In this document: one piece after another, positions 2,186 through 22,035 of the stretch | How positions within the stretch are numbered: the first letter of the stretch is position 1 | Layout: each line of letters opens with the position of its first letter | NCBI GenBank assembly: GCA_015486775.1 | Contig: WFRA01000097.1 | Span: 1-22,035 of the forward strand | Length of the DNA: 22,035 nt | Origin: Kiritimatiellales bacterium | GTDB taxonomy: Bacteria; Verrucomicrobiota; Kiritimatiellia; Kiritimatiellales; Pontiellaceae | Direction of reading: 5' to 3' | Translations under genes and position numbers: made by a program | Notes under the pieces: model-generated | The model's input: only the letters and a program-made list of their open reading frames with translations | Databases searched by the model: none | Told to the model about the DNA's origin: nothing

Positions 2186-4330
2186 CTATTCCTCGATGAT
2201 CAGGCGAACAAACCGCTCATCCGTCATAGTGGGAACCCGGTTGGTCACCGCATCGAAGTCGGCGTTGATGGTGCCGACACCCTCGACGGTGTAGCCTCCG
2301 TTGGTCCAACCGTGGTAGATCAGGTCGTCGGTGAGCTCTAGGTAGTAGGTCAGGCCGCTATCCAGCGCGGAACGCTTGGGATAGACATACTCAAGCCAGT
2401 TGGTTCCCCCGCTGTCCACTATCCCGCAGGAACTCGCGATTCCGCGGTTGGCCGCGTTGGTTGGATCGCCCCCGAACGCGTATTCGCACAGATTGTCCAC
2501 GCCGTCGCCATCCGGATCCGCGCCGGCCAGGGCATCGTCCCCGGTCAGGCCGTAGTCGATCGACCACCTTTCGGAGGGGGTCCGTCCGGCAACCAGTGCC
2601 TGTAGCTCCTGACCGCCATTCTTTTCGACAATGCGGCACTCGAATCCGGTTCCGCTTTTGTCCACGAATACCAAGTCGTTTGTGTTGAAGCCATTGGTGC
2701 TGGCCGTCCATATCAGGTCATAGGCCATACCGATCTCGGTGCTAAACCCGGCAAGTGTATCGACTTCGAGGGTCATGTTGGTCAGCACCACCCCGTCGTC
2801 GCCCGCCTCGATCGGCGTGGCACCGCCCGCATCCAGATTAAAGCGCAAGGTACCGCCCTGTCCCAACACCCAGCCGGTCTCGATGGAGTCCGCGCCGGAG
2901 CCGTCCACCACGAAGGTGCTACCCGCATGCTTGATGTCGATGTAGCTGGAGGCATCGAACGAACCGCCGGAGATGGTGTAGGAGCCCGTCCCGTCAGAGT
3001 TGTTCGCAAGTACCAGCGTCGGTAGCTCGAAGCGCCCGCCCGTCTGGTTGACGACCCCGGTGCCGCTCTGGCCCACGATGAAATAGGTTGCCTTGTAGTC
3101 GAGCAGGCCGCCGCTGAGGTTGACGACCCCCTTCGTCCCGCTCGTGTAGCCCAGCCGGATGCCGGAACTCTTGGCGGAGTCGATCTCGTTGGTGCCGCCG
3201 GAAATGTTGATGGTGCCCACCGCCTGGTCCCAGTGGCCGACATAGAGGGTGTCGGAACCGTAGAACTTGAAGTGGCCGCCGGTCTGGTTCAGCGTCCCCC
3301 GGCCGCTGCTGGCATGGCCGATCCCGGTTTCGGTATCCACCGAAATATCCATGGTTCCGCCGTCGAGATTGACGGTTCCGGTGCCCCAGTGGCCAATGTA
3401 GACCCGGTGGCTTGTGTGGACCTTGAAGGTTCCGTCCGTCTGGTGGACGATGCCGGTGGAGCCGCCGCCTTCGCCGATGCGGAGGTCGTTTAGCGTGTAG
3501 TCGACCAGACCGCCATATTGGTTCAGGATGCCCGTAGTGCCGCTGGTGTGGCCCAGTTCGACATTGGGTTCCGTGGCGGACAGAATCTTGTTGGTTCCCC
3601 CCGACACATTCAGGGTTCCGACGCAGTCGTCCCAGTGCCCCAGGATAAATTCGCCGGTACCGCTGAATTCGAAGAGGCCGCCGGTCTGGTTGAAGGTGCC
3701 GATGGCGGAAGCGGCGTGGCCGACATCCATGCGGGCAACGGAAACATCCACGGTTCCATCGGCCAGGTTGAGGGTTCCCGTCGTGCTATTGTACGACCCT
3801 ACGTAGAAGTAGGAATCGCCGCTTCCAGAATAGGAGTGCGTCAGGGTTCCACCGTCTACGTTCACCTCCATTGCATTGTTGCCGTTGTAGCCAAGGTAGA
3901 AGGCTCTTCCCCTGCTGTTCCAAGTGCCGCCGTCAAGGTTGTAGGTGTTGGCAGCGAAACTGTCGGAACCCAAGTACATCCATCCGTCCATGTCGACGGT
4001 GCCATCTGTCTGGTTGATGGTGGCGGTACCGCTGCTGTCTGAGAATTTTAAATCCTGCCCGTGCAGGTCGCCGCTAATGTTCAGTATGGCCGACCCGCCG
4101 GAGGGGGTCATCACCACATTGTGGATCTTGTTGGTCGGCCGTGAAGTCGACGTCAGGTTGACCGTGCCGCTGTAAATTTCCGCATCGGCTGTGTCGTCCC
4201 AAACCGGGTTCGGGTCGTTCCACCCCGCGTCCAGCCAGTCCCCTGTCGCTCCGCTGGACCAGGTATAGGCGGAGGCGATCCCCGCCACGAATGCGGCGAT
4301 GGCTACTAATAACATGGTTGGTCTGCTCAT
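2186..4330 (-). CDS. Secreted beta-helix repeat protein, paralogue 3, with calcium-repeat tail
   Basis: 714 residues. The ATG at 4330 has AGGAG 5-6 bases upstream and opens a signal peptide (MSRPTMLL, hydrophobic stretch, GIASA, cut near residue 21). Residues 22-580 match paralogue 2: GDWLDAGW, SRPTNKIHNVV, DGWMYLGSD, then NQTGG and NISGG repeats. About 133 residues are present twice in tandem (roughly 186-317 and 318-450), where paralogue 2 has one copy. Homology stops at about residue 580, exactly where paralogue 2 enters its PEP-CTERM tail. Here the tail is instead a thrombospondin-type-3-like calcium motif (DPDGDGVDN, 605-613) and a beta-rich terminal domain (about 640-714). It therefore has no sorting anchor and may be freely secreted or held differently. 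First gene of the minus-strand cluster, divergent from the AraC-type regulator. The function is unknown; a structural or adhesive role is a guess. Confidence 0.9.
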   Translation of the reverse strand: MSRPTMLLVAIAAFVAGIASAYTWSSGATGDWLDAGWNDPNPVWDDTADAEIYSGTVNLTSTSRPTNKIHNVVMTPSGGSAILNISGDLHGQDLKFSDSSGTATINQTDGTVDMDGWMYLGSDSFAANTYNLDGGTWNSRGRAFYLGYNGNNAMEVNVDGGTLTHSYSGSGDSYFYVGSYNSTTGTLNLADGTVDVSVARMDVGHAASAIGTFNQTGGLFEFSGTGEFILGHWDDCVGTLNVSGGTNKILSATEPNVELGHTSGTTGILNQYGGLVDYTLNDLRIGEGGGSTGIVHQTDGTFKVHTSHRVYIGHWGTGTVNLDGGTMDISVDTETGIGHASSGRGTLNQTGGHFKFYGSDTLYVGHWDQAVGTINISGGTNEIDSAKSSGIRLGYTSGTKGVVNLSGGLLDYKATYFIVGQSGTGVVNQTGGRFELPTLVLANNSDGTGSYTISGGSFDASSYIDIKHAGSTFVVDGSGADSIETGWVLGQGGTLRFNLDAGGATPIEAGDDGVVLTNMTLEVDTLAGFSTEIGMAYDLIWTASTNGFNTNDLVFVDKSGTGFECRIVEKNGGQELQALVAGRTPSERWSIDYGLTGDDALAGADPDGDGVDNLCEYAFGGDPTNAANRGIASSCGIVDSGGTNWLEYVYPKRSALDSGLTYYLELTDDLIYHGWTNGGYTVEGVGTINADFDAVTNRVPTMTDERFVRLIIEE

Positions 4331-8050: not shown

Positions 8051-9607
8051 TTAGGGTTTCTTCCCCGCCATAACTGTCTGGGAAAACGGGAACGCCGCAG
8101 CATTAAACCGCGCCTTAAACTGCTCCAACGAAGTTTTGCATGGGGAGTCCCATGTGCGTTCTGCAACAATCGCCAGGGGCAGGTCAACAAACGGGGTGAA
8201 CCAAGCATCATCCTCTACATCGATCGATTTGCCGTCGCACCACAAACATACCTCGTAGCCTTTAATATTCGGATGGGTCTGCGGTTGCCACTGCTCATAG
8301 ACTTTCCGTGGGTGGAAATAGACTTTTTCACGGCCAGGAACAATATAGAGGTAGGCGGTGCCCTTCATAATGTCCCCCGTAGTCATGATCTTATAGCCAT
8401 CAGCCAGAATTTCCGGTCGCCGGAAGGATCCCTTCCGGGAAACCCACGCATCGATCACAATATCCTTTGCCGGCTGAATGCTTGTTTTGTTTTGCCTGTC
8501 GCTATCTTTGCAGAAACGCCACCAGTTCCAAACCATGGTTGTTTTCCCGTACGACTTCACCTGCTCGTTCACTTCGTTCACAAAGTCCACAAAAACATCG
8601 CCCGGATATTCGTACCCCATCTCCTTCGCGGCCTTGACCAACTCCTTGCAGGCATATTTATCGTTATCGTACTGGTATTCATCCCCCCCAATGTGGAAAT
8701 ACGGCCCGTCGAAAAGCGGAATCCACTCGTCCAGCAAAGCCTTGATCCAAGACCTCACCTCCCGGCGGGAAATATCCAGCGTCCCGCCCTTGTTGTCCTG
8801 CGGATCCCCCGTTCCATATTTCCCCCCCATCGAAGGGCATTTAAAACCAAGATAGGGATTGTAGTCCGTAATGGCTTCTGCGTGGGCGGGGAGGTCTATT
8901 TCGGGAATCACCATAACGTGGTATTTCGCCGCATAGTCCTGGATTCTCCGAATGTCCTCCTTGCTGTACGATTGTTCTGCCGCCAATCCGGGAAACAAGT
9001 CGCTTTTTAGCCGGAATCCGTTCCACTCCGTAAAGTGCAGGTGGATAAAATTCATCTTCTGCCAAGCCAGCTTGCGGATCAGGGTTTCGATGTATTCCAC
9101 CTCGAAATATCTACGCCCCAGATCAATCATGAATCCCCGCTCGGCATACTGGGGAAAATCGCGGACTTGTCCGTTCGGTATCTCCTTGTCCTGCATGAAC
9201 AGCTGCAACAGCGACTGCATGGCATAAAAGGCACCCTTGGCGGAATTGGCTTTCACCTGCACTTGCCCGGCGATATCCATTTGGTAGCCTTCCTCGCCCA
9301 GAGCATCATCGTGTGCATCAAGGGAAAATACCAAATCCCCGTCCCGGGGCTCTCCTTCAAGAACCGCCAGCTCCATCCCGGAAAGCAGTTTCAACTCCTT
9401 TTTGAAAACCACCAGATCCCGCTCCAACACCTTATAGCTGGCGGCATCGGCCACAATTCGAGAGGTCGATGTTAATAACTTGAAGCTGCCTTCGCGAGCC
9501 TGCACCTCCCGGAATTGAGGAACCACATTGTATTGCCCGCGGGAAACCAAGGGCAGGAATAGATAGAAGATCGTTGCGAACAATACATGCTTCATTATGA
9601 ACCTCAT
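8051..9607 (-). CDS. GH20 beta-N-acetylhexosaminidase, secreted
   Basis: 518 residues from the ATG at 9607, chosen for GGGAG 6 bases upstream and a plausible signal peptide (RFIMKH, then LFATIFYLFLPLVS, cut near Gly-Gln). A GTG 15 bases earlier, overlapping the previous stop, and an ATG 12 bases later are alternatives. Residues 25-150 form the alpha/beta N-terminal domain usual in GH20; the TIM barrel runs from about 155. The family motif HIGGDE is at 305-310: Asp309 positions the N-acetyl group and Glu310 is the acid/base in substrate-assisted catalysis. HLHFTEWNGFRL stands where many relatives have HWHLTDD, so this is a divergent subfamily. Expected action is removal of terminal GlcNAc or GalNAc from glycans outside the cytoplasm. 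It sits 11 bases from both neighbours in the operon. Confidence 0.93.
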   Translation of the reverse strand: MRFIMKHVLFATIFYLFLPLVSRGQYNVVPQFREVQAREGSFKLLTSTSRIVADAASYKVLERDLVVFKKELKLLSGMELAVLEGEPRDGDLVFSLDAHDDALGEEGYQMDIAGQVQVKANSAKGAFYAMQSLLQLFMQDKEIPNGQVRDFPQYAERGFMIDLGRRYFEVEYIETLIRKLAWQKMNFIHLHFTEWNGFRLKSDLFPGLAAEQSYSKEDIRRIQDYAAKYHVMVIPEIDLPAHAEAITDYNPYLGFKCPSMGGKYGTGDPQDNKGGTLDISRREVRSWIKALLDEWIPLFDGPYFHIGGDEYQYDNDKYACKELVKAAKEMGYEYPGDVFVDFVNEVNEQVKSYGKTTMVWNWWRFCKDSDRQNKTSIQPAKDIVIDAWVSRKGSFRRPEILADGYKIMTTGDIMKGTAYLYIVPGREKVYFHPRKVYEQWQPQTHPNIKGYEVCLWCDGKSIDVEDDAWFTPFVDLPLAIVAERTWDSPCKTSLEQFKARFNAAAFPFSQTVMAGKKP

Positions 9608-9618
9608 GGCTCTCTCCC

Positions 9619-11466
9619 TCACTTTATTTCCGAGACTTCAAATTCAATCAAAACCGCTGCATGGTCGCTTGGGAAAGCACGCTTTTCATGCGGGATTGAG
9701 TTGTCTTCATATTCACCTTCCTCGGGGATCACCGTCGCGGCAACGGGGACAAGCGCAAAACCACTCGCCGGATTTTTTACATAGAGTCTGTCGATTCGGT
9801 TTCGCGGCCGATTTTCGTACATCGGGCTCCAGGTGTTGCCGGGAACTTTTACAGGATCAGGGTACACCGCGCGGAAACAGTCAGAGAACCCTGCTTTCTC
9901 CATTTCCAAGCTTGAAGGAAGGGGGAGCGCCCGTCTGGACAACGGCATTGCCGCTTCGGTTTCCTCGGTCCAGTCCAGATGGGACGGGCAATTCCAGTCT
10001 CCGCCGACCAGTACAGGATACTTCGCGCTTAAATGCCCCTGTTCTTTTAGGTACCCGAGAATATCCTTGGTTTGAGCCTGCCGGGTTGCCTCGCGTTTCA
10101 ATAAATCTTCATCTGAAATGTCAGGGTTTTCCTTTAGACCCCAATCGACGGTATGTCGGTAGTCGATCCAAGTCGAGTAGGCAACCACCTCGCGTCCTTC
10201 GCCCAGATCAAGCCGGGCACCGAGACCATAGTGGCTATGGTAGAAATAATCCTGAAGGATCGGGAAATGCGTCAGCACACACAAATGATGCTTCTTCTTG
10301 CCTCCCTGGTAATAGTTCCATCCTAGCTCCCCAGCCAACCAAGCACCGGCATGGGGGCGACCACCATCTATGTCGTAGGCTTCCTGCAGAAGGCAGATAT
10401 CGGCTTTGGTTTTTCGAATCAACGCAAGGATCTTCTCCGGACCACCCTCGACATCGTTTCCGGCATGCAAGAGATTCCAACCAAGAACCTTAACTCTTTC
10501 CGGCTTCTCTGTCCCGCGCAAAGAGCCGACTTGATCTTGATCATCCACCTTCCCGCATATCGGTTCCCCTGCCTGTTGGACACCAGAGGAATCACGATCG
10601 GAACTCAGCGTGAATGTGGCAAAAACCGGGTAGTGATCGGAACTCTTCGACTCTCCTCGCTTATAGTTGCTGCAAGAATCAATGTTTCTATAAAAGAAAT
10701 AATCAATGCGGTGTGTCCCTGGATCAGCACCCAAAATAGTATTATATAACTTGGTCTCTGCATATTTCCCGGTAGCGGATGCATAGGCATCCTTGAATCC
10801 CGCTTTTATGAATTTATTATATTTATCAGGGTGTTTCCCTCCATCAAAATTTAGATCGCCTCCCCAGACAATAGCATCCTCGGCCGGCACGGTTGCCTTC
10901 AGGTATTGCACGATTGCGTCCAGATCCGAATCGTTCAATCCATCGTAGATATGCCATGGATGGGTATTCCCAACCCAGAGGGGCTTGCCGTTCACCGACA
11001 GCTTCAACAGGGCAATCTGCCGGATCATGTCATGCCTTGGCTCCGGAAAATGCTTAACATACGGTCCGCCAATTTTTGGAAGGCGTGTAATGATTAACTG
11101 TGATTTTCCCCTGCGATAGTCCGTTGTTCCATCGCGAACCACCTCCTCATAAACAGTGTACTCATCCGGCAACATACTCCTAATAAAAGCAGTGGGATTT
11201 GCCCGTGCCCCTGTAAACTTAAAATCGGGGTGGTTGTTCACGTATGGGAACTCCTGCACGAAGGCAACATCCACCCCCTCCTCTTTGATACAGGAGACCA
11301 ACTGATCTAGCGCGGAGTTTTCACCAAGGTTTGTCTTTTCGGCATTTACTCCATAATGAACATTATATGTCATCACCTTGACCGTATTGCTGTTTGCCAA
11401 CGCCTTAGCGTTAAAACAGATGCCAATCAGTGCGGAAACGAAACTTGCTGCGATTTTAAATTTCAT
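9619..11466 (-). CDS. Secreted protein with two tandem EEP phosphodiesterase domains
   Basis: 615 residues. The start at 11466 has GAGGT 7 bases upstream and gives a signal peptide (MKFKIAASFVSALIGICFNAK, cut near ALA-N25); an upstream in-frame start would add 21 unsuitable residues. It contains two endonuclease/exonuclease/phosphatase domains. Domain 1 (about 27-288) has MTYNVHYG (Asn35), VQEF (Glu72), NTHPW (His169), GGDLNF (Asp204, Asn206), HRIDYFF (Asp255) and SSDHYPV (Asp277, His278). Domain 2 (about 325-612) has LGWNLLH (Asn331), LLQEAY (Glu362), GGDWNC (Asp490, Asn492), NRIDRLY (Asp559) and PSDHAAV (Asp601, His602). The His of the THL/THP motif appears replaced in domain 2 (YSTWIDY). 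The family uses Mg2+ to cut phosphodiesters or phosphomonoesters; substrates range from DNA to sphingomyelin and inositol phosphates and cannot be told here. First gene of the operon with GH20. Confidence 0.9.
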   Translation of the reverse strand: MKFKIAASFVSALIGICFNAKALANSNTVKVMTYNVHYGVNAEKTNLGENSALDQLVSCIKEEGVDVAFVQEFPYVNNHPDFKFTGARANPTAFIRSMLPDEYTVYEEVVRDGTTDYRRGKSQLIITRLPKIGGPYVKHFPEPRHDMIRQIALLKLSVNGKPLWVGNTHPWHIYDGLNDSDLDAIVQYLKATVPAEDAIVWGGDLNFDGGKHPDKYNKFIKAGFKDAYASATGKYAETKLYNTILGADPGTHRIDYFFYRNIDSCSNYKRGESKSSDHYPVFATFTLSSDRDSSGVQQAGEPICGKVDDQDQVGSLRGTEKPERVKVLGWNLLHAGNDVEGGPEKILALIRKTKADICLLQEAYDIDGGRPHAGAWLAGELGWNYYQGGKKKHHLCVLTHFPILQDYFYHSHYGLGARLDLGEGREVVAYSTWIDYRHTVDWGLKENPDISDEDLLKREATRQAQTKDILGYLKEQGHLSAKYPVLVGGDWNCPSHLDWTEETEAAMPLSRRALPLPSSLEMEKAGFSDCFRAVYPDPVKVPGNTWSPMYENRPRNRIDRLYVKNPASGFALVPVAATVIPEEGEYEDNSIPHEKRAFPSDHAAVLIEFEVSEIK

Positions 11467-11824: not shown

Positions 11825-12988
11825 CTAGAGCATCAGCTTTCTGCGGATCCAGAGTATGCCTCCGCCCATCGTGGCAATCAGGCCAAGTGTTGCCGGCTCG
11901 GGAATGACGTCGTAGACTTGCAGGGTGTTGCTGCTTCCGCCGATGGCAAGCTGTTTGCCGTCGGGGGAAATAGCCATGGAGCTTCGATATATGTTGAAGC
12001 CCAGATCGGCGATCACAACGCTTGAATCCGCAAGATAGGTTCCATTGGTGGATACGGCGTTGGCCACATCGATGCGGAACATGTCCTCGACGCTGTTGGT
12101 GCCTTTGAGTGCGAACCAGAGGGAACCGTCATCCTGGTTGATGGCAATCGCATCGTCAAGATAGCTGTAGGATGCCGGATCGATTCCGTCGATATAGACG
12201 CGCTCCGCAGTGCCACTGCCATCCAGGCGGGTGACATAGACCCGGTCGGTTCCATCGCCCAGATCGTCCGAATTGATAACATTGTCGCGGGCGATGTAGA
12301 GCTTGCCGTCGACATTGCTGGAGTCGATCCGCAGACCACCGCTCTGCCTCGGATATTCAGTCCAGAGAACGTCGTAGTCGTTGGCGGTGGAGGTGCTGGT
12401 GGACTTCACGGCCAGAATGGCATTGGTCGGCCCGTCGTAGTAGGAGTCGTAGGCCAGCACATCGCTGCCCGCCGTGTAGCCACCGCCAAAACCGGTAGGA
12501 ACCATGACGACGGAACGACCGTCGTTGTCGGAGCCGCTGCCATAGTGCCCGAGCATCCAGCTCGAAGTAGGCGTTCCGCTCGGATCCGTGATTTTATATA
12601 CCCCGCCGCCGCTATCGGCGTTGATCATATAGGCCGTCCCTGAGGAGTCCACCGCAACATCGTGCGGGCTGTCGACGTCTGCGTCCGTTCCGCTGGGGGC
12701 GGAACCCAGCGCCAGTCGGCTGCTCACGGTTCCGGCGGTTAGATCGAACGAATAGAGTCCCCGCCGACTGTTCCAGCCCGTTTTGTTTGCCACGTAGACC
12801 CGGTCGTAGGTTCCGCCGGTCTGCTGGGTCGGATCGAACGCGAGCCCCCCGACATAGTTGGTTCCACCTCCGCCCCATCCGGTGGAAATCGTCTGCTGCA
12901 ACCCCGACACATAGACTCCGTCGTAGGTTGCGGCCGAAGCTGCCGCGACCAAGGACATCGCAGCCATTGCTGTAATCACTCTTTTCAT
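11825..12988 (-). CDS. PEP-CTERM beta-propeller protein
   Basis: 387 residues. The start at 12988 has AGGAGAAC 8 bases upstream and gives a signal peptide (MKRVITAMAAMSLVAAASA, cut near residue 19). The mature protein is Gly/Ser/Asp-rich and beta-stranded, with repeated blades such as SPHDVAVDSSGTAYMI (107-122), DGKLYIARDNV, DGSLWFALKG and SMAISPDGKQLAIGG (337-351). These recall NHL or SMP-30-like six-bladed propellers, but no catalytic set is recognisable. Residues 361-387 are a PEP-CTERM tail: VIPEPATLG, a hydrophobic helix, then IRRKLML, almost the same as in the 656-2086 gene, so both are probably processed by the same exosortase. It is monocistronic, with a strong terminator, and isolated between repeat-rich regions. 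The function is unknown. Confidence 0.9.
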   Translation of the reverse strand: MKRVITAMAAMSLVAAASAATYDGVYVSGLQQTISTGWGGGGTNYVGGLAFDPTQQTGGTYDRVYVANKTGWNSRRGLYSFDLTAGTVSSRLALGSAPSGTDADVDSPHDVAVDSSGTAYMINADSGGGVYKITDPSGTPTSSWMLGHYGSGSDNDGRSVVMVPTGFGGGYTAGSDVLAYDSYYDGPTNAILAVKSTSTSTANDYDVLWTEYPRQSGGLRIDSSNVDGKLYIARDNVINSDDLGDGTDRVYVTRLDGSGTAERVYIDGIDPASYSYLDDAIAINQDDGSLWFALKGTNSVEDMFRIDVANAVSTNGTYLADSSVVIADLGFNIYRSSMAISPDGKQLAIGGSSNTLQVYDVIPEPATLGLIATMGGGILWIRRKLML

Positions 12989-13225
12989 TGCCGTTCTCCT
13001 TTGTTCTTCTTCCGGGTGGCGCAGGCACCCGCCTGCTGGAAACCATCCAGAATTCAGGGTCAACGTAGCACGCTCCTATATGGCCGTCATTGCATATAAG
13101 CGTCTATTAGGTTTGGTTTTGCGACATCTAACTGAGGGGGCACTCCTCCCGAAACAGGCTGCGCCGCAAAAATCCGGATCGCCCTTCTTTACACCAAGGG
13201 GAATTATAGCAAAATTAATCTGGAT

Positions 13226-13702: not shown

Positions 13703-16700
13703 TCATTGGGCGGGGTCGTAGTTGAGCTTTACCTTGTAGTAGCCAACAGGTTGTCCGGAAATATCCACAGGAACGGTTGTCATGGAGCCGGTTCCTTCGA
13801 TATCATTCGAAATTCGGTTCCATGTTTGATGTTCCAAATTGGTGGTTTCTTCGATGAAGTAGACCCGTCCCTCTTTGGAGTGCCATTGGATATTGATCTC
13901 CTCGGTTCCCGATGGGGCAAGCGATTCTTTGAGCAGGGAGGCCGGATCTTTGGGATCGGTTCCCGCCTTGAATTCATCTGCATCGCTCACCCCGTCATTG
14001 TCGTAATCCGTGGTGCTTCCGGCGGTGATCATGTCGCCGAAGGTATCGATTTCCCAGTCGTCGCCCATGCCGTCCTGATCGGTGTCGGCATAGAGCGAGG
14101 CAATGGCCGTGAAGTTTTCCGGGTCGGAAATCGTTTTCCAGGTGGCCCAGATCCAGTCGGCGGAGCGGGCGGTGGAGGAGATGCGCAGTTCATCCAGTTT
14201 CCCATCGATCGTTACATGTTCGTTGTCGTCCTTGTACAAACCGAGACGCAACCAGGAATCGATATAGTCGATATCCCCGCTTTGTGCAGTTGAAGAGGCC
14301 ACCTGCTGGCCATTTTCATAAAGCCGCATGGTCGATCCGTCGTAGGTTCCCGCAATATAAACCCACTGGCTCGATTCCGGCAGCCCACCTTCCAGATAGG
14401 TGAGTCCATTGCCTCCTCCGGCGATGCCGAACATCCAGTGGTCGTCTTGGGTAACGGTTCCCAAGATCCAGCCGTGTTCATCGCTTCCGTTGTCCTGGAA
14501 AAACCCCGCGATTCCGCCCCAGTTGTGTATTTGGTTTAGATTCACCCAGCCCTCCGCAGCAATGCCCGATGTGGGAAGGTCGATGGATTCGGCGGATGTT
14601 TTGTCGCCGCCCGCCTGTCCGGCATCAAGGTATTCTGTCGAGGAAGTCACTTCCTGCCCGCCCAACAGAATGCCACTGGTTGCGGTGGCATTCATCGGAG
14701 TGGCTTTTCGATGGGCGGACGAAGAATCTTTCCGGTCCCCGGAAGTTTCGTCTAAGTGCCAGACCGCATAAAAGTCGCTATTCCACGTGAGGGCGGGATC
14801 GGCAGGGGCATTGGTTTCGGTGCTGTTTCCCCAGAGCATCCGAATAAATTGATTGGTGTCGTTTCCCAAGGTTGGAACCTTGACCCAGACATAGGAGGTT
14901 CCGCCGGGGTTCCAGCTCTCGATTTCGTGTGCGAGCAGGGTATCCCGCACGGGATTGGCAAACCGCAGATCCGAACCGTCCGCCGCGCAGTGGCTGTAGG
15001 AAAATCCGCCCTGTCCCTCGGCCAGGGTCACAAGCACCGGAAAGTTCGCGAGGGTTTCGCTCCGGGCGTAGCCGGGAAAGGTGATTTTTGCTTGGTAGGC
15101 ATAGCGGGACGGATCGAGCGCGTCGTTATCGACGAGGGTCAATCCGACCGAATCAGAGCCTCCATTCATGAAGTTTTTGGCAACAAGCGTCACCCAGATG
15201 GACTCATCAGGTTCGTTGGGGTCGAGGTCGTTTATGGGGAAAACCTCAATCTGCGCAGTTTGCTCTCCTTCCTTCAGCGTAACGGTTCCCGGGAGATTTC
15301 CATAATCGACCCCCTCCGTTGCCGTTCCGGAAAGGGTGTATTGAACGTCAAGTTCCGCGCCCTCGGTGCCGGCGGGACGGGAAACGGTCAAGATAGCGGG
15401 AACGGGATGGGCCTCCGAAAGTTCTGTGGGGGATGCCGAGAGGGTCAGCGCCCCAGTGATGAAAGCTTCGGCGGTATCGGCAAGCACCCATGCAGAAGTT
15501 GTGCTGTTGCTCACCGCATAACGGTAATAATAGACCCGATCTGCCTGCAATCCAGAAACCGACTGCGCCAACGAACCACTTGGCTGCGACCCCAAGTCCA
15601 CAACATGATCCCATCCGTCGGTGGTAAATCCGGGATCGCTTTCGCCCCAATATAGACGAATGGAATGGCTACCCAATGTTTCCGAAGAGACTTTTCCCCG
15701 AAGCGTTGCGCTGGAAGTCGAAATTCCTGTTGCCCCCCCCTCGTTCGATATTTTTGTATCCGATTCGAGGAAAGCAAATAGGCTTCCCTCGTCGGTACCC
15801 ACAAAGAGCATTCCATCAGAAACAGCGAGTCCGGCGGCGCGTCCATCCACACCATGCTCCCAAAGTTTGGAACCATCGGTGGCGGAATAGGCCACCACTT
15901 TTTTATTTCCACCTGCAATCAGGGCATCGCCCGCCTTGATCAAGGCGTTCGGGGTGTCGCAATCGATCGTCCAAAGGGTGGAAGATCCGTTGCTGCCCTT
16001 GGCGATGAGCTGGGTATCGGTCAGCACATAAAGCACGGAACCGTCGGCCAGGATGTTGTTGGCCTTGGGATAGGTGGCCAAGAGTGTTGCGTTGGTGGAC
16101 CAGCGCTTTACACCCATGTCGCCCCGGTTGTCGTAGTTGCAGATGAGTTCGCCATCCACGTTCACCAGCGCATAGGATCCGGCATCCGCCCGCGCGCCAA
16201 AGGTTCCTTCGTCGTGGCCGTCGGTTCGGCGGAAGATGCGCGGCGTGAGGCGACCCTGCATCAGGTAGATCAGATCGTCGGTCAGCATGATGGCACCCAT
16301 GGGGGTGGTTCCGCCGTTTACCTTATAAACTTCACTCCCGGTGTCCGCATCGAGGGCGCAAAGATAGGTCGAATTCCAACTGGTCAACGAAGAGGCGAAA
16401 TAAACCTTTCCATCCATAATAGATACCCCCGTACGAACCGGCCATTCCGGAATCATGCTTCCATTGTTTCCTATCAACCTGAAATCGGATGGAGGAATCG
16501 GTGCATACTTCCAATCAAGTGTTCCATTGGCGCTGTCCACACAATAAACAGAGCCGTCGTCCGAGCCAAAATAGACGGTGCCATTTGTGTATGCAGGCGG
16601 GAAGCGGACGGGGCCATCGGTCACAAAGACCCACTCCTGCTCCCCGGTTTTTCGGTTGAGTGCATAGGCCGACTCGGTGATGGCCGAGCCCAGGAAAACC

Positions 16701-16990
16701 TGGTCGCCGACAACGGTGACGAACGGGGCGTCATCAAAATTTCGCAATGCGTCCAACGGGTCGTCGTCGCGATATGAGTCCCACGGGGCAGGGCCGGCCC
16801 AAGCGGTGCGCTGCGGAGCGGGGGTAGTGCGCTGCCAAACCAGTGCCAAACGGGAATAGTCCAGCGAATCCCCCGATACGCCGCTACGGCGGTTGTCGTG
16901 CATGTAGGTTGGCCAGTCCTCTGCCACTGCAGAAAAAACCGAAAAAACGATCACGCCCATAACTATTTTTTTTATCGAAAAAGTTTTCAT
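13703..16990 (-). CDS. Giant secreted PQQ-propeller / Calx-beta / DUF2341 / LamG protein
   Basis: 1095 residues. The start at 16990 is one base after the upstream stop, and its AAGGAG site lies in that gene's last codons. Signal peptide 1-23. Residues 24-410 form a PQQ-type (BamB-like) propeller: DWPTYMHDNRRSG, VYFGSDDGSVYCVD, YLCALDADTGSE, VVAYSATDGSKLWEH. Residues 411-513 are fibronectin-III-like. Residues 515-625 are a Calx-beta domain (GTATEGVDYGNLPGTVT, then DNDAL). Residues 629-725 resemble DUF2341 (PVLVTLAEGQ, DGSDLRF, FIRMLWGN). Residues 738-950 are a LamG/concanavalin-like fold (AVWHLDETSGD, YIAGTYDGSTMRLYENGQ, GKLDELRIS). Residues 968-1015 are calcium-type repeats (DTDQDGMGDDWE, DYDNDGVSDADE), and 1017-1095 a terminal beta domain. 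No catalytic motif is seen; binding to surface carbohydrate or scaffolding is inferred. It is translationally coupled to the methyltransferase-propeller gene. Confidence 0.93.
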   Translation of the reverse strand: MKTFSIKKIVMGVIVFSVFSAVAEDWPTYMHDNRRSGVSGDSLDYSRLALVWQRTTPAPQRTAWAGPAPWDSYRDDDPLDALRNFDDAPFVTVVGDQVFLGSAITESAYALNRKTGEQEWVFVTDGPVRFPPAYTNGTVYFGSDDGSVYCVDSANGTLDWKYAPIPPSDFRLIGNNGSMIPEWPVRTGVSIMDGKVYFASSLTSWNSTYLCALDADTGSEVYKVNGGTTPMGAIMLTDDLIYLMQGRLTPRIFRRTDGHDEGTFGARADAGSYALVNVDGELICNYDNRGDMGVKRWSTNATLLATYPKANNILADGSVLYVLTDTQLIAKGSNGSSTLWTIDCDTPNALIKAGDALIAGGNKKVVAYSATDGSKLWEHGVDGRAAGLAVSDGMLFVGTDEGSLFAFLESDTKISNEGGATGISTSSATLRGKVSSETLGSHSIRLYWGESDPGFTTDGWDHVVDLGSQPSGSLAQSVSGLQADRVYYYRYAVSNSTTSAWVLADTAEAFITGALTLSASPTELSEAHPVPAILTVSRPAGTEGAELDVQYTLSGTATEGVDYGNLPGTVTLKEGEQTAQIEVFPINDLDPNEPDESIWVTLVAKNFMNGGSDSVGLTLVDNDALDPSRYAYQAKITFPGYARSETLANFPVLVTLAEGQGGFSYSHCAADGSDLRFANPVRDTLLAHEIESWNPGGTSYVWVKVPTLGNDTNQFIRMLWGNSTETNAPADPALTWNSDFYAVWHLDETSGDRKDSSSAHRKATPMNATATSGILLGGQEVTSSTEYLDAGQAGGDKTSAESIDLPTSGIAAEGWVNLNQIHNWGGIAGFFQDNGSDEHGWILGTVTQDDHWMFGIAGGGNGLTYLEGGLPESSQWVYIAGTYDGSTMRLYENGQQVASSTAQSGDIDYIDSWLRLGLYKDDNEHVTIDGKLDELRISSTARSADWIWATWKTISDPENFTAIASLYADTDQDGMGDDWEIDTFGDMITAGSTTDYDNDGVSDADEFKAGTDPKDPASLLKESLAPSGTEEINIQWHSKEGRVYFIEETTNLEHQTWNRISNDIEGTGSMTTVPVDISGQPVGYYKVKLNYDPAQ

Positions 16991-16991
16991 G

Positions 16992-19817
16992 CTACTCCTT
17001 ACCTGAGAATCCCAAAGATGTGTTGATCCAACCGTTGCAACTGCATCCGCCGCCACCTTCCGGCATCAGGAACATTCCGCCTGCCGCCGAAAAATTGAGC
17101 CAGCAACTCGGTCGCAAATAGTCCCATTCGGTCAGCACGCCGGTGCTCAAATCTTGAATGGCCATTTTCCGGTCGGTACCCCGGTAGATGAGCGCATGGG
17201 TCGATGCCGCATAGGTGGGACAGCCCGAACGCAGGTTCCCCATGTTTGAATTCAGTACCGTTCCGTCCGAGAGTTGGAAAAGTTTAGGAATGAGAAAAAC
17301 CTTGTCGCCGATCACGACCGGCCGCTGGAGGTGGCCGCTGTGGTTATCGGAGAACCAGGCTTGCCCTGTGACCTGCCAGTCAGTACTTCCGTTGCTTGCA
17401 TCGTACACATACAGGTTGTAGTCCGTTTTTGAGGTTGAAAGCACCACCTTGTCGTCGGCTGGCGCATACATCATAGAGACCACGGCAATTCCTGGAACGG
17501 GGGATACAGGTTGATCCCAAAGAACGCTGCCTGTATCCGAGTCGAGCGCCACCAGATAGAGATTTGTCCAGAGCTCTGGCCCATAGCGCCCTCCGCCAAG
17601 CGCAACGTTGTCCGCATTCCGGCTTTCGAGGAAGTAGACCCGGTTGCTACCCATGCAGAGGGTGGTTTCGATAATCACCCCGTTGGTATATCCCCACGCG
17701 GGGTCGCCCGTATCGGCATCCAGTGCGAAGAGCGACTTGCTGCAAACCTTGTCGGCCAAAGAGCCATCCTTGTTATCGTACCAGTAGGCCGGCCCCATGA
17801 ACTCGAGATAATGCGCCCGCTCTGGAACCACGCTTCCAATCAGCAGATCTTTGTATCGGAAGAGTGCGCCCCACTCCTGGCCGCTTTCCGGAATCGCGTA
17901 GCGGCGGAGCAGGTCGCCGTTCCTTCCGTCCAGTTTCCAGCACTCGTTCTTGATCGCCAGATAGACGCCCTCGTCGTCCGCGCACATGTTGCTGGTGTCG
18001 CGCGGAATATTCACGCGCCGCAACGCGGGGATTTCGAGCGACCAGAGCATTGCGCCGTTGTAGGAATCCATGGCCATGACACGGTTGTATCCCTGGTGGT
18101 AGAGCCGCCCGTTGGCCGACACGGGCGAGGGCATGCGGGGGTTGCGGTCGATCCCCGAGTCGGAACCGGGGCGCCCCAGCCACTGGAGCTGCAGATCGGT
18201 TGTTGCCGTTGCGCCGCTCATGCCGTCGCCGGCGCAGGCGTTGTTGGCCGGCGATCCATACTCGTGTGTCCACCAACCCACATAGTCCAATGCGCCTCGT
18301 TCATAATCGCCCCAGATTCCGTTCGGGTCGTTCGATGCAACAACCGACATCCCGCCATTGGAAAACCAATCCTGGATCGTCGAAGAGCTGATTCCCGAGT
18401 TCGCCCCCATGAAAATATGTCCGCCTTGCGGACGCACGATACGCAACGCCTCCGCCGCCAAACCCGCCAGCGTTCCGTCGGAGATTGCACGACCGCAGAC
18501 GACCAGGTTAAAGAAATCCTTGGTGTAGGGTAGGGCGGTGAGGTCGGCCTCGTGGCGCACCTTCACCCGCGTGCCGTACAATCCGCAGTCGAGTAGCTTT
18601 TGCCGGACCGACGCGACGGTGGCCGCATTGTCGTCCACGCCGATTACAGTCAGGTGGCTCTGCCTTGCCAACTCGAAGAGCAGGCGGCCGTCGCCGATGC
18701 CGTAGACCAGAACATAGCCCTTGTCGATTCCCGTGGCCTCCAAAATGTGCTGCGCGGACTCGGAATAATTCGTTGTCAAACTATCGGACACCCATGGCGA
18801 CACCGCCCCGGAGGCGTCCATCGGGGAAAAGTTGATCGCGTTGTCGAACCAATAGATCGGGGAAAAGACCTCGCTCCCCCCATCGGAGCAGCCAATGCGA
18901 TACCAGTATTTGGTGCGCCACTGCAACTTGGACAAAACCACACCGTGTTCTGTTGCGACCGTTGGAATGGTTGCCCGCTTCCCGAGCGACTTTGTGGTTC
19001 CATATTCAACAATCGCGTCCGTGGCCGCGGCGCTCTCCCACTTTACTGCGGCGGAGTGGGAATCCAAAAATTGGACGCGCGGAACCTCGGTAGAGATATC
19101 AGCCTCACCGAGGGTCTGCACACTACCTAGTTCGGCGATTTCCTCTGCGGACAAACTACGGTTAAAAATAGCCACCCGCGCCACATCAATGGCGTTGTCC
19201 TCGCCGTTGTTGTCGGCAAACAGCAGGATGTTCCCGCCCCTCGCGGCCGGATAGAGCGCGAAGCGCCCGTCCAGGGATTGTTTGGTTCCGGTTAGGATGC
19301 GGTTGCCGTCCACATAGATGTCGGCATGGTTGGTTTCGGATGTCCCCAGGCTCATGGAGACGACCACCCGGTACCAGATGTCTGGGTGCGCCGTCCAGTC
19401 GGAGTAGCCGATGGCACCCACCCCCACCTTGCCGCCGTTGCGGATGAATATGTCCGCATCGTTGGCCGTGGGCGACTGCGAAACTTGGAAGAGTGCGTGC
19501 CAAACCGCCAGCGATGGAATCCGCACATCCATCAGGATGGTGTAGTCGTTCACCCAGTCGCTGCTCCCGCCGTTGGGCGCCATGTTGTGCGTGCAGTCAA
19601 AGTAGCTCTCGGGGCAGATTTCGATGGCACCGTCCTCCGGCAAAGGGCCTGGAACCACCTGTTGTGTGCCGATTAGTTCCAGATCCACTCCCGTTTCGGC
19701 GTGGAGCAGATCGTTCGTGTTGTCGAACTCCCAGGCACCCGCCAATCCGCTGGGATAGGCCAATCCCGCAAAAGCGGAACCCGCCGCCAGCAACATGGTA
19801 AAAATCAGTTTTTCCAT
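16992..19817 (-). CDS. Secreted LamG / fibronectin-like / SAM-methyltransferase / PQQ-propeller protein
   Basis: 941 residues. The start at 19817 follows AGGAGAATAAG and opens a signal peptide (MEKLIFTMLLAAGSAFA, cut near 17). Residues 25-225 are LamG-like (AGAWEFDNTNDLLH, VARVAIFNRSLSAEEIAEL). Residues 245-325 are fibronectin-III or phosphatase-N-like (AIVEYGTTKSLG, WRTKYWYRIG). Residues 355-475 are a class I methyltransferase fold: motif I VLVYGIGDGR (369-378), acidic end of strand 2 IGVDDN (392-397), ALPYTKDFFNLVV, and EALRIVRPQGG. Then comes GWWTHEYGSPANNACAGD (514-531) and a PQQ-type propeller (about 545-941) ending in cysteine motifs C866, RPSCW (C905) and GGGCSCN (C925, C927). From memory, this order and these Cys motifs match a large uncharacterised planctomycete secreted family. 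A methyltransferase outside the cytoplasm would lack a known SAM supply, so the fold may be non-catalytic. A TTGACA hexamer (19890-19885, minus) could be its -35. Confidence 0.93.
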   Translation of the reverse strand: MEKLIFTMLLAAGSAFAGLAYPSGLAGAWEFDNTNDLLHAETGVDLELIGTQQVVPGPLPEDGAIEICPESYFDCTHNMAPNGGSSDWVNDYTILMDVRIPSLAVWHALFQVSQSPTANDADIFIRNGGKVGVGAIGYSDWTAHPDIWYRVVVSMSLGTSETNHADIYVDGNRILTGTKQSLDGRFALYPAARGGNILLFADNNGEDNAIDVARVAIFNRSLSAEEIAELGSVQTLGEADISTEVPRVQFLDSHSAAVKWESAAATDAIVEYGTTKSLGKRATIPTVATEHGVVLSKLQWRTKYWYRIGCSDGGSEVFSPIYWFDNAINFSPMDASGAVSPWVSDSLTTNYSESAQHILEATGIDKGYVLVYGIGDGRLLFELARQSHLTVIGVDDNAATVASVRQKLLDCGLYGTRVKVRHEADLTALPYTKDFFNLVVCGRAISDGTLAGLAAEALRIVRPQGGHIFMGANSGISSSTIQDWFSNGGMSVVASNDPNGIWGDYERGALDYVGWWTHEYGSPANNACAGDGMSGATATTDLQLQWLGRPGSDSGIDRNPRMPSPVSANGRLYHQGYNRVMAMDSYNGAMLWSLEIPALRRVNIPRDTSNMCADDEGVYLAIKNECWKLDGRNGDLLRRYAIPESGQEWGALFRYKDLLIGSVVPERAHYLEFMGPAYWYDNKDGSLADKVCSKSLFALDADTGDPAWGYTNGVIIETTLCMGSNRVYFLESRNADNVALGGGRYGPELWTNLYLVALDSDTGSVLWDQPVSPVPGIAVVSMMYAPADDKVVLSTSKTDYNLYVYDASNGSTDWQVTGQAWFSDNHSGHLQRPVVIGDKVFLIPKLFQLSDGTVLNSNMGNLRSGCPTYAASTHALIYRGTDRKMAIQDLSTGVLTEWDYLRPSCWLNFSAAGGMFLMPEGGGGCSCNGWINTSLGFSGKE

Positions 19818-19909
19818 CTTATTCTCCTGTCTTTGGTTTATTCGCTTCCTCACACCGGGGCGACTGTGCTTTTCTATCCGCGCATGTCAAGTTGCAAGCA
19901 CTCAAGTCA

Positions 19910-20818
19910 ATGTCTTCAACCGCCCTCATTCTAATTGCCCTATCTGCCTTTATGCACGCAGGCTGGAATCTGCTGTGCAAGAAAAAGCATCCAACGACCG
20001 GTTTTTTTCTGATGGCCAGCCTTGCGGGAACCGTGGTTTTGGTTCCTGCCCTAATCCCATCCTTTGATCTTCTCCAGAAAATTCCATTGCTTGTTTGGAG
20101 TCTCCTTGCCGTTACAGGATTTTTCCTTGCGCTAAATTATGCCGCCATTGGCAGCGCCTACCGCTCGGGCGATATCTCGGTGGCCTACCCGCTGGCTCGT
20201 TCCGTCCCGCTTCTGCTGGTTCCAATGGTTGGATTCCTCCTAGGGCGGGGGAATCAAATCTCCACCCAATGCGTCGCGGGAATGCTACTGGTTGCCGGCG
20301 GCTGTTTTTTTATTCCCCTCCACCATTTCCGCGATTTCCATTTCCGTAGTTTCATGAATCTCACCTGTGCGTTTGCGCTACTTGCCGCCGTCGGGACAAC
20401 GGGCTATTCCATGGTCGACGACGAAGCCCTCCGCCTTCTTCGATCCCGGTTTTCCGCCCACGCCGGCACGCTTGAAACCACCCTTCTCTACGCCCTCCTC
20501 GAAAATATCGCCGCCACGCTTTGGCTCGTTCTTTTTGTATTTTTCCAGTCCCCGGAAAGGCTGGGGTTTCGTGCCACCTTCAAAAACCAGTGGCGCTCCG
20601 CCTTTTTCGCCGGAACAATTATTTCGCTCACCTACCTTGTTGTCTTGGTCGCGATGGCCTTTGCCAAAGACATCAGCTACATCGTCGGTTTCCGCCAGCT
20701 GAGCATCCCGATCGGTGCCCTAGCCGGCATACTTGTCCTGAAGGAAAAACTCCATCCTCCCAAACTCGTCGGCGTTATTATCCTTTTCGTGGGTCTGTTG
20801 CTCATTGCCCGCGGATAG
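19910..20818 (+). CDS. EamA/DMT-superfamily transporter
   Basis: 302 residues from the ATG at 19910. A TTG 18 bases earlier is in frame, but neither start has a clear ribosome site; I prefer the ATG because relatives start close before the HAxWNLL motif, here HAGWNLLCKK. About ten hydrophobic helices are visible, in two halves as in EamA proteins, with ISVAYPLARSVPLL in the first half and FRQLSIPIGALAGILVLKEKL in the second; both are family-typical. These inner-membrane proteins export or exchange small metabolites such as amino acids or nucleotide sugars; the substrate cannot be told. It diverges from the methyltransferase-propeller gene (92 bases apart) and converges on the GH20 gene, whose stop lies one base beyond its own. 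Confidence 0.88.
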   Translation: MSSTALILIALSAFMHAGWNLLCKKKHPTTGFFLMASLAGTVVLVPALIPSFDLLQKIPLLVWSLLAVTGFFLALNYAAIGSAYRSGDISVAYPLARSVPLLLVPMVGFLLGRGNQISTQCVAGMLLVAGGCFFIPLHHFRDFHFRSFMNLTCAFALLAAVGTTGYSMVDDEALRLLRSRFSAHAGTLETTLLYALLENIAATLWLVLFVFFQSPERLGFRATFKNQWRSAFFAGTIISLTYLVVLVAMAFAKDISYIVGFRQLSIPIGALAGILVLKEKLHPPKLVGVIILFVGLLLIARG

Positions 20819-20819
20819 T

Positions 20820-22035
20820 TCATTTCTTGTCCACATCCCGATAGTTGACCCCGGCCGCGTCGAAACGCCGCTGCTGCGTCTCCACGCGCCGGACAAAACC
20901 GGAATACTCCTTTTCCCTGTTTGCCGGAGACCAGCCCACTTCGCTCAACGCCAGCGCGCGGGGAAACTCCATATATTCCACCTCCTCCAGGTTGTGGATG
21001 AACTCCGTCCAGATCTGCCCCTGCACCCCCAGTATGTGCCCCTTTCCCTCACCCTTCAGCTCGGGAATCCACGGATCGGCGCGATACACCTTTTCCAGGG
21101 GCAGGAAATTGCCGATGGCCTCGGGCTCCCCGGCCCGGTTCCGGCTCTGGTAGTAGTCGAAGTAGAAATAGGGGTTGGCGGCATTCACCAGGTCATGCCC
21201 CTCGCGAACCATCTCCCCGGGAATTTCCCGGAATCCATCCGCCGGGCGACCGTGCCACCACATGACCACGGTGCTCCTTGGAAAATCGCCGTTCACGATC
21301 CCCTCCCAGTCCCAGACCACCATCCGGCGGTGGCGCGAAACCAGGAAGTCGTCGATCTGGTGCATGAACCAGCCCTGCATCTGTCCCATGTCCCGGAGGT
21401 TCCGCTGTTTGAGCAGCTCGTGCATCCGGGGGTTCGCCTCCCACTCCTCCGTATTCACCTCGTCGCCGCCCACATGGATAAACTCCGACGGGAAAAGCTC
21501 CAACACCTCCGAGAGCACATCCTTGCAAAAGGCGACCGTCGAATCCTCCACATTCAGCACGCATCCCCAGTCCTTCCCCGGCTCCACCCCGGGCGCGTTG
21601 GTGCAGCCCAGTCCGGGATAGGCGGCGATGGCCGCCTGCATGTGGCCGGGCATGTCGATTTCCGGAACCACCCGGATGTGCCGGGCCGCCGCGTACGCCA
21701 CCACCTCCCGGATATCCGCCTGCGTGTAGAACCCGTCGTGCGGCCTGTTGTCGTAGGTCCGGGGCTTCCGCTTCTTCCCCCGGCTCTTTTCCAGCAGCGC
21801 CTTCTCGCGAAACGCCCCCACCTCGGTCAGCTTCGGGTATTTTTTGATTTCGATGCGCCACTCCTGGTCATCCGTCAGGTGCCAGTGGAACGTGTTGAGC
21901 TTAAGGGTCGACATAATGTCGACAAAGCGCATCACATCCTCCTTCGGCATGAAGTGGCGGCTGGCATCGAGCATCAGGCCGCGCCATCCAAACCTTGGAA
22001 AATCACGAATTTCAACCTTTGGAATAGTCCACTCT
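20820..22035 (-). CDS. GH20 beta-N-acetylhexosaminidase (N-terminus outside the window)
   Basis: 404 codons are visible before the stop, reading in from the right edge at 22034. The visible part starts with EWTIPKVEIRDFPRFGWRGL and enters the TIM barrel at once (GWRGLMLDASRHF, residues 16-28), so the missing part is the signal peptide and N-terminal alpha/beta domain. HWHLTDDQEWR (50-60) and the catalytic motif HVGGDEVN (187-194; Asp191, Glu192) are intact, as are WWHGR and GVQGQIWTEF, which line the sugar pocket in the family. It is a canonical exo-beta-N-acetylhexosaminidase, closer to the family norm than the GH20 at 8051-9607. Expected role: release of GlcNAc or GalNAc from chitin-like oligomers or host/algal glycans in the periplasm or outside the cell. 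Confidence 0.95.
   Translation of the reverse strand, partial: EWTIPKVEIRDFPRFGWRGLMLDASRHFMPKEDVMRFVDIMSTLKLNTFHWHLTDDQEWRIEIKKYPKLTEVGAFREKALLEKSRGKKRKPRTYDNRPHDGFYTQADIREVVAYAAARHIRVVPEIDMPGHMQAAIAAYPGLGCTNAPGVEPGKDWGCVLNVEDSTVAFCKDVLSEVLELFPSEFIHVGGDEVNTEEWEANPRMHELLKQRNLRDMGQMQGWFMHQIDDFLVSRHRRMVVWDWEGIVNGDFPRSTVVMWWHGRPADGFREIPGEMVREGHDLVNAANPYFYFDYYQSRNRAGEPEAIGNFLPLEKVYRADPWIPELKGEGKGHILGVQGQIWTEFIHNLEEVEYMEFPRALALSEVGWSPANREKEYSGFVRRVETQQRRFDAAGVNYRDVDKK

Follow-up and report, generated by a model that had tools for sequence, protein, structure and literature searches.

A split propeller-methyltransferase-propeller gene pair in a Kiritimatiellales bacterium: probable subunits of one extracytoplasmic assembly

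Two adjacent genes of a Kiritimatiellales bacterium, A and B, probably encode two subunits of a single extracytoplasmic assembly, which would be the split version of a protein widespread in the PVC group as a single chain. The single chain has three modules: a first propeller (P1), a methyltransferase-like domain (MT) and a second propeller (P2). A carries P1, and B carries MT and P2. Judged by the standards of genome-context analysis (fusion, permutation, conserved adjacency and tree congruence), the sequence case for their being subunits is strong. Such propeller proteins are spread through Planctomycetota, Verrucomicrobiota and Kiritimatiellales records under the labels BamB-like, PQQ-binding-like or hypothetical. 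Recognizing one three-module unit that occurs fused, permuted or split, with a recurrent partner, turns this vague annotation into a testable system, and the split pair opens the interface of the fused protein to ordinary pull-down and co-folding.

The pair lies in a 22,035-nucleotide stretch (contig WFRA01000097.1 of assembly GCA_015486775.1), called the window below; the source genome is 2.5 Mb and 72% complete. The original prediction, of two genes one base apart, was confirmed: both are long ORFs, and both are on the minus strand. Their features are as follows.

16992..19817, minus: gene B, upstream gene of the pair, predicted secreted MT-P2 subunit, 941 aa (ORF; Pfam; AlphaFold2 pLDDT 86.1, pTM 0.80)
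19134..19553, minus: LamG-like region of B, below the Pfam cut-off (PF13385, 23.9 bits vs 27.6)
18846..19067, minus: PAPN, purple-acid-phosphatase N-terminal/Fn3-like domain of B (PF16656, Pur_ac_phosph_N, 30.1 bits vs cut-off 30)
18324..18776, minus: MT, methyltransferase-like Rossmann fold of B, with V at the motif-I acidic position (PF13649, 38.7 bits; own HMM; motif table)
16995..18278, minus: P2, second propeller of B, from the WTHxY..N motif to the SCW..GCSC end (PF13360; own HMM; propeller fold matches)
17037..17222, minus: span of the four invariant P2 cysteine codons, 17220-17222, 17103-17105, 17043-17045 and 17037-17039 (alignment; last two codons read directly)
16991..17000, minus: junction, AAGGAG plus the TAG stop of B plus one base, before the ATG of A (read directly)
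13703..16990, minus: gene A, predicted secreted P1 subunit, 1095 aa (ORF; Pfam)
15761..16924, minus: P1, first propeller of A, starting DWPTYMHDNRRSG (PF13360, 66.4 bits; own HMM, 586 bits, A being a seed)
15167..15448, minus: Calx-beta domain of A (PF03160, 31 bits vs cut-off 27)
14726..14980, minus: DUF2341 of A (PF10102, 39.4 bits)
14150..14608, minus: LamG (Laminin_G_3) of A (PF13385, 77.2 bits)
13943..14008, minus: TSP3-like calcium-type repeat of A, below cut-off (PF18884, 22.1 bits vs 25)

The junction reads AAGGAG-TAG-C-ATG, a single C separating the stop of B from the start of A, and this arrangement makes translational coupling of the two genes likely. Upstream of B, the ORF at 19892-20818 (plus) runs the opposite way, and the next long minus-strand ORF that we took as a gene (11825-13063) begins 640 bases past A, so that the transcription unit looks like two genes, B then A. 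Promoter-like sites in the window did not exceed those in shuffled sequence (2 vs a mean of 3.2), terminator-like sites numbered 14 (mean 7.7 in shuffles), and an Rfam scan of the window found no family. Hydrophobic, signal-like stretches were seen by eye at both N-termini, in agreement with the predicted signal peptides. On the two-subunit reading the genes would share a single message with coupled translation, and each product would be exported on its own.

Above the Pfam cut-offs, A has PQQ_2, Calx-beta, DUF2341 and LamG, and B has PQQ_2, Methyltransf_25/_11 (PF13649/PF08241) and, by 0.1 bit, Pur_ac_phosph_N; E-values reach 1.9e-21, which is not chance. We also built small HMMs of our own for P1, MT, P2 and PAPN, in which A seeds P1 and B seeds MT and P2; B scores 254 bits with MT and 807 bits with P2, being itself a seed of both. 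The motif EDWPTYMHDNRRSG is present in A, and WWTHEYGSPANN, LRPSCW and GGGCSC in B; of the two closing motifs named in the original prediction, GC-C is there, and RPGCW is replaced by LRPSCW. The added modules had been foreseen for both proteins. LamG and Calx-beta do occur in A, with Calx-beta and the calcium-type repeat confined to A, and the latter repeat and the LamG of B fall short of their cut-offs; PAPN of B and DUF2341 of A had not been listed. The N-terminal region of B varies among relatives, and PAPN also occurs in most split relatives and, by our HMM, in 32 of 120 proteins from the P1 search described next. The LamG, DUF2341, Calx-beta and TSP3 parts may be lineage-specific additions for surface or glycan binding.

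Are the predicted single chains real? A search with residues 1-420 of A found 248 proteins, and of the 120 listed (the window's own A, P0027, among them) 78 are P1-MT-P2, 32 P1-PAPN-MT-P2, nine P1 only and one P1-P2. Thus 110 of the 120 listed combine an A-type propeller with MT and P2 in one chain, as foreseen, and the original prediction, which was to fall if single-chain homologues lacked such a propeller, stands on this point. The search admitted only proteins of 0.55-1.75 times the query length, which excludes P1-only proteins of about 450 aa, so the proportion of fused chains in this list does not measure that in nature. The window's own genome also encodes a single chain (G000:C381:4580-7780), which scores 65 bits with MT, 213 with P2 and 508 with P1 (its P1 being a seed of that HMM), and matches A at 110.4 bits (E 3.2e-32) and B at 159.5 bits (E 3.3e-47). 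Source names of the single chains include 'PQQ-binding-like beta-propeller repeat protein' and 'outer membrane protein assembly factor BamB'. Their modules are homologous to the three of A and B, including the P1-type propeller and an MT-P2 part with the four P2 cysteines; the difference is that they are one chain with P1 first, whereas the window pair is two genes, one base apart, with MT-P2 first. A fused chain was modelled as one body (pTM 0.89). In the split form P1, a PQQ/BamB-type propeller with no sign of PQQ binding, would pack against the MT-like domain and P2.

The split form is not peculiar to the window. Scanning the contigs of named genomes with a B-family alignment gave 44 loci, which by record title come from Planctomycetota and its genera, Verrucomicrobiota and its groups, Lentisphaerota and Kiritimatiellales, with one titled just 'Bacterium'. 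Adjacency was no part of this search, and it was on the two genes never co-occurring elsewhere that the original prediction was to be abandoned; the next same-strand core gene after MT-P2 proved to be P1-only in 43 of the 44, and a fused P1-MT-P2 gene in the remaining one (L063). The P1-only gene is cut by the locus end in L072, L079 and L090, and in a further pair of L090 P1 comes ahead of MT-P2. Split pairs usually place MT-P2 before P1, the opposite of the arrangement common in single chains. Since the search patterns were drawn from the split clade, the sample leans to the split form and gives no estimate of its frequency. Among 387 genomes of the phylum, strong matches comprised split pairs in G000 (the window's genome), G317, G356 and G347, and fused chains in G183, G384, G095, G303, G251, G333, G194, G196 and G061. 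Within the genus the occurrence is sporadic: among 28 genomes, MT/P2 matches exceed 60 bits in G000, G017 (which carries the split locus L040) and G021, and those of G004 and G015 are weak.

Clustering of the ORFs around split pairs revealed a recurrent third gene, T3 (for example L087:5455-6630 and, in the window's own genome, G000:C226:1366-2463). It is present in 33 of the 44 split loci, in 31 of them directly behind P1; some of the 11 loci without it end soon after P1. Fourteen aligned members share an invariant Cys followed by [KQ][VL]PVFR[YF]ALERW, then C[SA]C-x-V-K-x-x-N-P-G-x-D and a hydrophobic C-terminus, with three cysteines invariant throughout; distant members differ, that of L042 reading CDTPVYRYALQNW. 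Neither a Pfam match (three members scanned), an NCBIfam match (two members) nor a solved relative (best E 0.96) was found. A T3 profile search matched 2617 proteins among 7997 scored candidates; where names are visible in the 120 listed, they read 'hypothetical' or 'uncharacterized'. Of 387 genomes drawn, 28 were core-positive, and T3 is present in 27 of these as against 17 of the 359 others (Fisher p 7e-29, uncorrected for relatedness). Here 'core-positive' denotes a match of at least 35 bits to the MT/P2 part, a cut-off set after seeing the table, which dropped 46 of 74 matching genomes because their match was N-terminal or PAPN-only or scored lower; the core and T3 draws were taken to be the same 387 genomes (same count, same handles), and the T3 HMM was built from three loci later counted in the T3 tally.

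Transporter genes form a further part of this neighbourhood. Near split pairs, ThiF/MoeB-, ModA-, ModB- and ModC-like genes were found in 13 of 44 loci, an FtsX-like permease in 12 and a LolD-like ATPase in 10; these labels (as also SBP below) are best BLAST matches to a few representatives, and ModC and LolD are confusable. Genes of these kinds also flank two fused chains, in the order T3, FtsX, LolD, P1-MT-P2, SBP, SBP, ModB, ModC (L042) and T3, FtsX, LolD, SBP, ModB, ModC, SBP, P1-MT-P2 (L046 with L144). In L134 a fused chain and a split pair flank SBP, ModB, ModC, ThiF and T3; in L138 the split pair sits between FtsX/LolD/SBP/ModB/ModC and T3; in L068 T3/FtsX/LolD/SBP/ModB/ModC genes lie beside a split pair; and in G095:C9 (L176, L050) the set precedes a P1-containing ORF and three permuted genes. 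Rhodopirellula/Rubripirellula-type loci with T3 have T3 alone, with no exporter or importer genes, and the fused chains C381 (L012), L135, L136 and L141 are without such neighbours in the loci fetched. The neighbour genes match the ModABC and LolCDE/MacB families of ABC systems, the SBP of L068 being the only one among the rows listed to pass an equivalog cut-off (modA). Propeller proteins are not known to be part of ModABC or LolCDE/MacB systems.

The presence of partners that move small ligands, and of conserved cysteines in both P2 and T3, suggests an extracytoplasmic role in handling a metal, oxyanion or sulfur ligand. The A/B body would be the outside component of a system that also comprises T3 (membrane-anchored, with its conserved cysteines), an ABC exporter resembling LolCDE/MacB and an ABC importer resembling ModABC, and such a system would most likely capture or present a metal, oxyanion or sulfur ligand. 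That the A/B body itself handles metal, oxyanion or thiol is a weak and tentative proposal. It is equally speculative that PVC bacteria have an undescribed extracytoplasmic system for the maturation or loading, outside the cell, of a metal or sulfur cofactor. Its body would combine two propellers, a degenerate methyltransferase fold and an invariant four-Cys site, be made as a single chain, a circular permutant or a split operon, and be serviced by T3, the LolCDE/MacB-like exporter, the ModABC-like importer and often a ThiF/MoeB-like enzyme. The accessory genes of nitrous oxide reductase do comparable maturation and loading for copper. A literature search found no paper describing a split or fused P1-MT-P2 and T3 system, a negative result of little weight.

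For the window's own pair the main rival is that it forms a surface scaffold for glycan binding or adhesion, used in polysaccharide utilization and unrelated to the T3 and ABC transporter genes. Beside the window pair lie neither T3 nor the transporter genes of the set; in its genome ModC, SBP, T3, FtsX and LolD stand together on contig C226, apart from the pair. A has LamG, DUF2341 and Calx-beta, two ORFs near the pair (8051-9622 and 20820-21974, both minus) look by eye like GH20 hexosaminidases, with HIGGDE and HVGGDE motifs, and the contig of the own-genome fused homologue has an ORF that by eye resembles an SGNH hydrolase. Against this, most P1 genes of the other split loci, judged by length (most frames are 429-547 aa), are without added modules, and the P1/MT/P2 core and its association with T3 persist. 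We regard a glycan-binding role as possible, though not probable.

The split, fused and permuted forms also bear on whether A and B belong together at all. P1 and P2 trees were built separately with FastTree from 166 units having both propellers (45 split and 121 fused, or 44 and 120 distinct, since S_L060 is identical to S_L104 and F_P0047 to F_P0048); L073, which has the same length and ORFs as L040, was left out, and units with short P1 or P2 spans were dropped by a length filter. Distances in P1 and P2 correlate at r = 0.90 for split and 0.89 for fused units, with none of 1000 label permutations as high in either, a congruence that is also expected from shared vertical descent. Each tree groups 43 split units into a single clade (support 0.94 and 0.96) and gathers 32 fused chains, identical in the two trees, into another (0.95 and 0.95). 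L108 and L070, also split, diverge next to these clades or beneath them, with one weak node (0.67) in the P2 tree, and in both trees the last common ancestor of all split units has those 32 fused chains among its descendants as well. When either tree is rooted at its midpoint, parsimony places the fused form at the base and needs two changes, which could be, for example, one split and a later re-fusion.

A third form came to light as ORFs with MT first and P1 last, of which there are 17 of at least 950 aa. In a comparison of 15 of these (omitting the mis-cut ORFs L048 and L054; all 17 give the same direction), hhalign placed the first propeller with P2 (E 2.4e-44, vs 6.7e-19 to P1) and the C-terminal one with P1 (8.6e-59, vs 7.7e-12 to P2). 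By these alignments the MT-P2-P1 chains are circular permutants of the three-module unit. Permuted genes or P2-P1 relatives lie near a split pair in L061, L062, L091, L093 and L094. In L091, L093 and L094 (Rhodopirellula sp. SM50, strain TBK1r and Stieleria sedimenti) permuted-type genes are found on one or both sides of the split pairs, so that a stretch of about 22 kb contains the unit in two forms. It is also of note that L063:9512-17387 has three consecutive genes, MT-P2, P1-MT-P2 and P1. This arrangement suggests a tandem duplication with the central P1 joined to MT-P2, and a plausible intermediate between the split, fused and permuted forms; L063 looks like a snapshot of circular permutation via tandem duplication. 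The MT-P2-then-P1 order, the permuted single chain and the T3/transporter association are all new beyond the original prediction.

Propellers of the PQQ type occur widely, and each of the two proteins has certain or possible adhesion-type modules. Might A and B be separate co-expressed surface proteins that share a PQQ-type repeat and form no stable complex, the fusions being mere shuffling of propeller domains? This is unlikely: P1 and P2 remain distinct families in the fused, split and permuted forms, P1 follows MT-P2 in all 44 loci (in one, within the fused gene), and the two trees are congruent. The two-subunit reading put forward in the original prediction is thus supported by adjacency, single-chain homologues and tree congruence, the complex itself being inferred from these.

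All four P2 cysteines are conserved in every aligned unit, split (45/45) or fused (121/121), 166 in total, and the P1 residues W120, R129, P132, D144, D145 and R186 are conserved in essentially all 166. The cysteines, at the end of P2, may be a metal site or two essential disulfides; the AlphaFold2 model has the cysteine loop at pLDDT <50, with no site geometry seen.

That B is an active secreted methyltransferase, with A as its partner, is very unlikely and was down-weighted on the motif table, which covers sequences above 30 bits (38 split, 132 fused). The class I SAM methyltransferase fold is clearly recognized in B by Pfam (PF13649 and PF08241 above cut-off) and by fold search (3dlc, TM to target 0.64), and the acid (D or E) at the end of strand 2 is mostly kept (93% of split, 84% of fused). 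Canonical motif I, however, has an acidic residue and GxGxG. In B it reads VYGIGDG, with V at the acidic position and the Gly pattern intact; across relatives that pattern is eroded, the middle Gly being kept in only 34% of split and 46% of fused sequences, and at the acidic position 89% of split sequences have V and about 95% of fused ones have V, I or L. In seven split genes our HMM did not detect MT at 15 bits. The domain probably does not methylate outside the cytoplasm because SAM is not expected there. We read the fold as retained for structure or ligand binding, and the MT-like Rossmann domain may be a structural or ligand-binding module of the assembly.

Known propeller proteins were also considered. 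BamB (YfgL) has the PQQ-type propeller fold in common with A and B, and Pfam PQQ_2 is described by BamB's name; BamB is not known to have an MT domain or a second propeller. Membership was ruled out on the NCBIfam cut-off (TIGR03300: A 50.3 and B 29 bits, vs 285.2). Tetrathionate hydrolase of Acidithiobacillus was the top Foldseek match of both models (B and the fused chain), at 13-18% identity in the listed alignments. It is described (PMC10859504) as a homodimer of one cofactor-free 8-bladed propeller with a cysteine-independent mechanism, whereas P2 has four invariant Cys. When its catalytic Asp325 was sought, the best matched stretches were short and at the level of the repeat; for these two reasons tetrathionate hydrolase was rejected as a functional model. 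A PQQ-dependent dehydrogenase in two chains is scarcely credible: there are PQQ_2 Pfam matches, and PQQ dehydrogenases are among the fold matches, but B scores 23.6 bits vs the NCBIfam PQQ-ADH cut-off of 480.05 (TIGR03075), on which membership was rejected, and the strongest P1 fold matches are Rv3035, tetrathionate hydrolase (which needs no PQQ; PMC10859504), YxaL and BamB, in a list that spans the P1 part only, so that absences from it are uninformative on MT and P2.

Clostridial neurotoxin structures in the Foldseek list of B (TM to target ≤0.36) were taken as generic jelly-roll matches to its LamG-like region. Elsewhere in the window, the minus-strand ORFs at 656-2155 and 2186-4330 are, by eye, rich in NVNGG/TINQT-like repeat stretches, and those at 656-2155 and 11825-13063 have PEP-CTERM-like tails (IPEPATLG..WIRRK).
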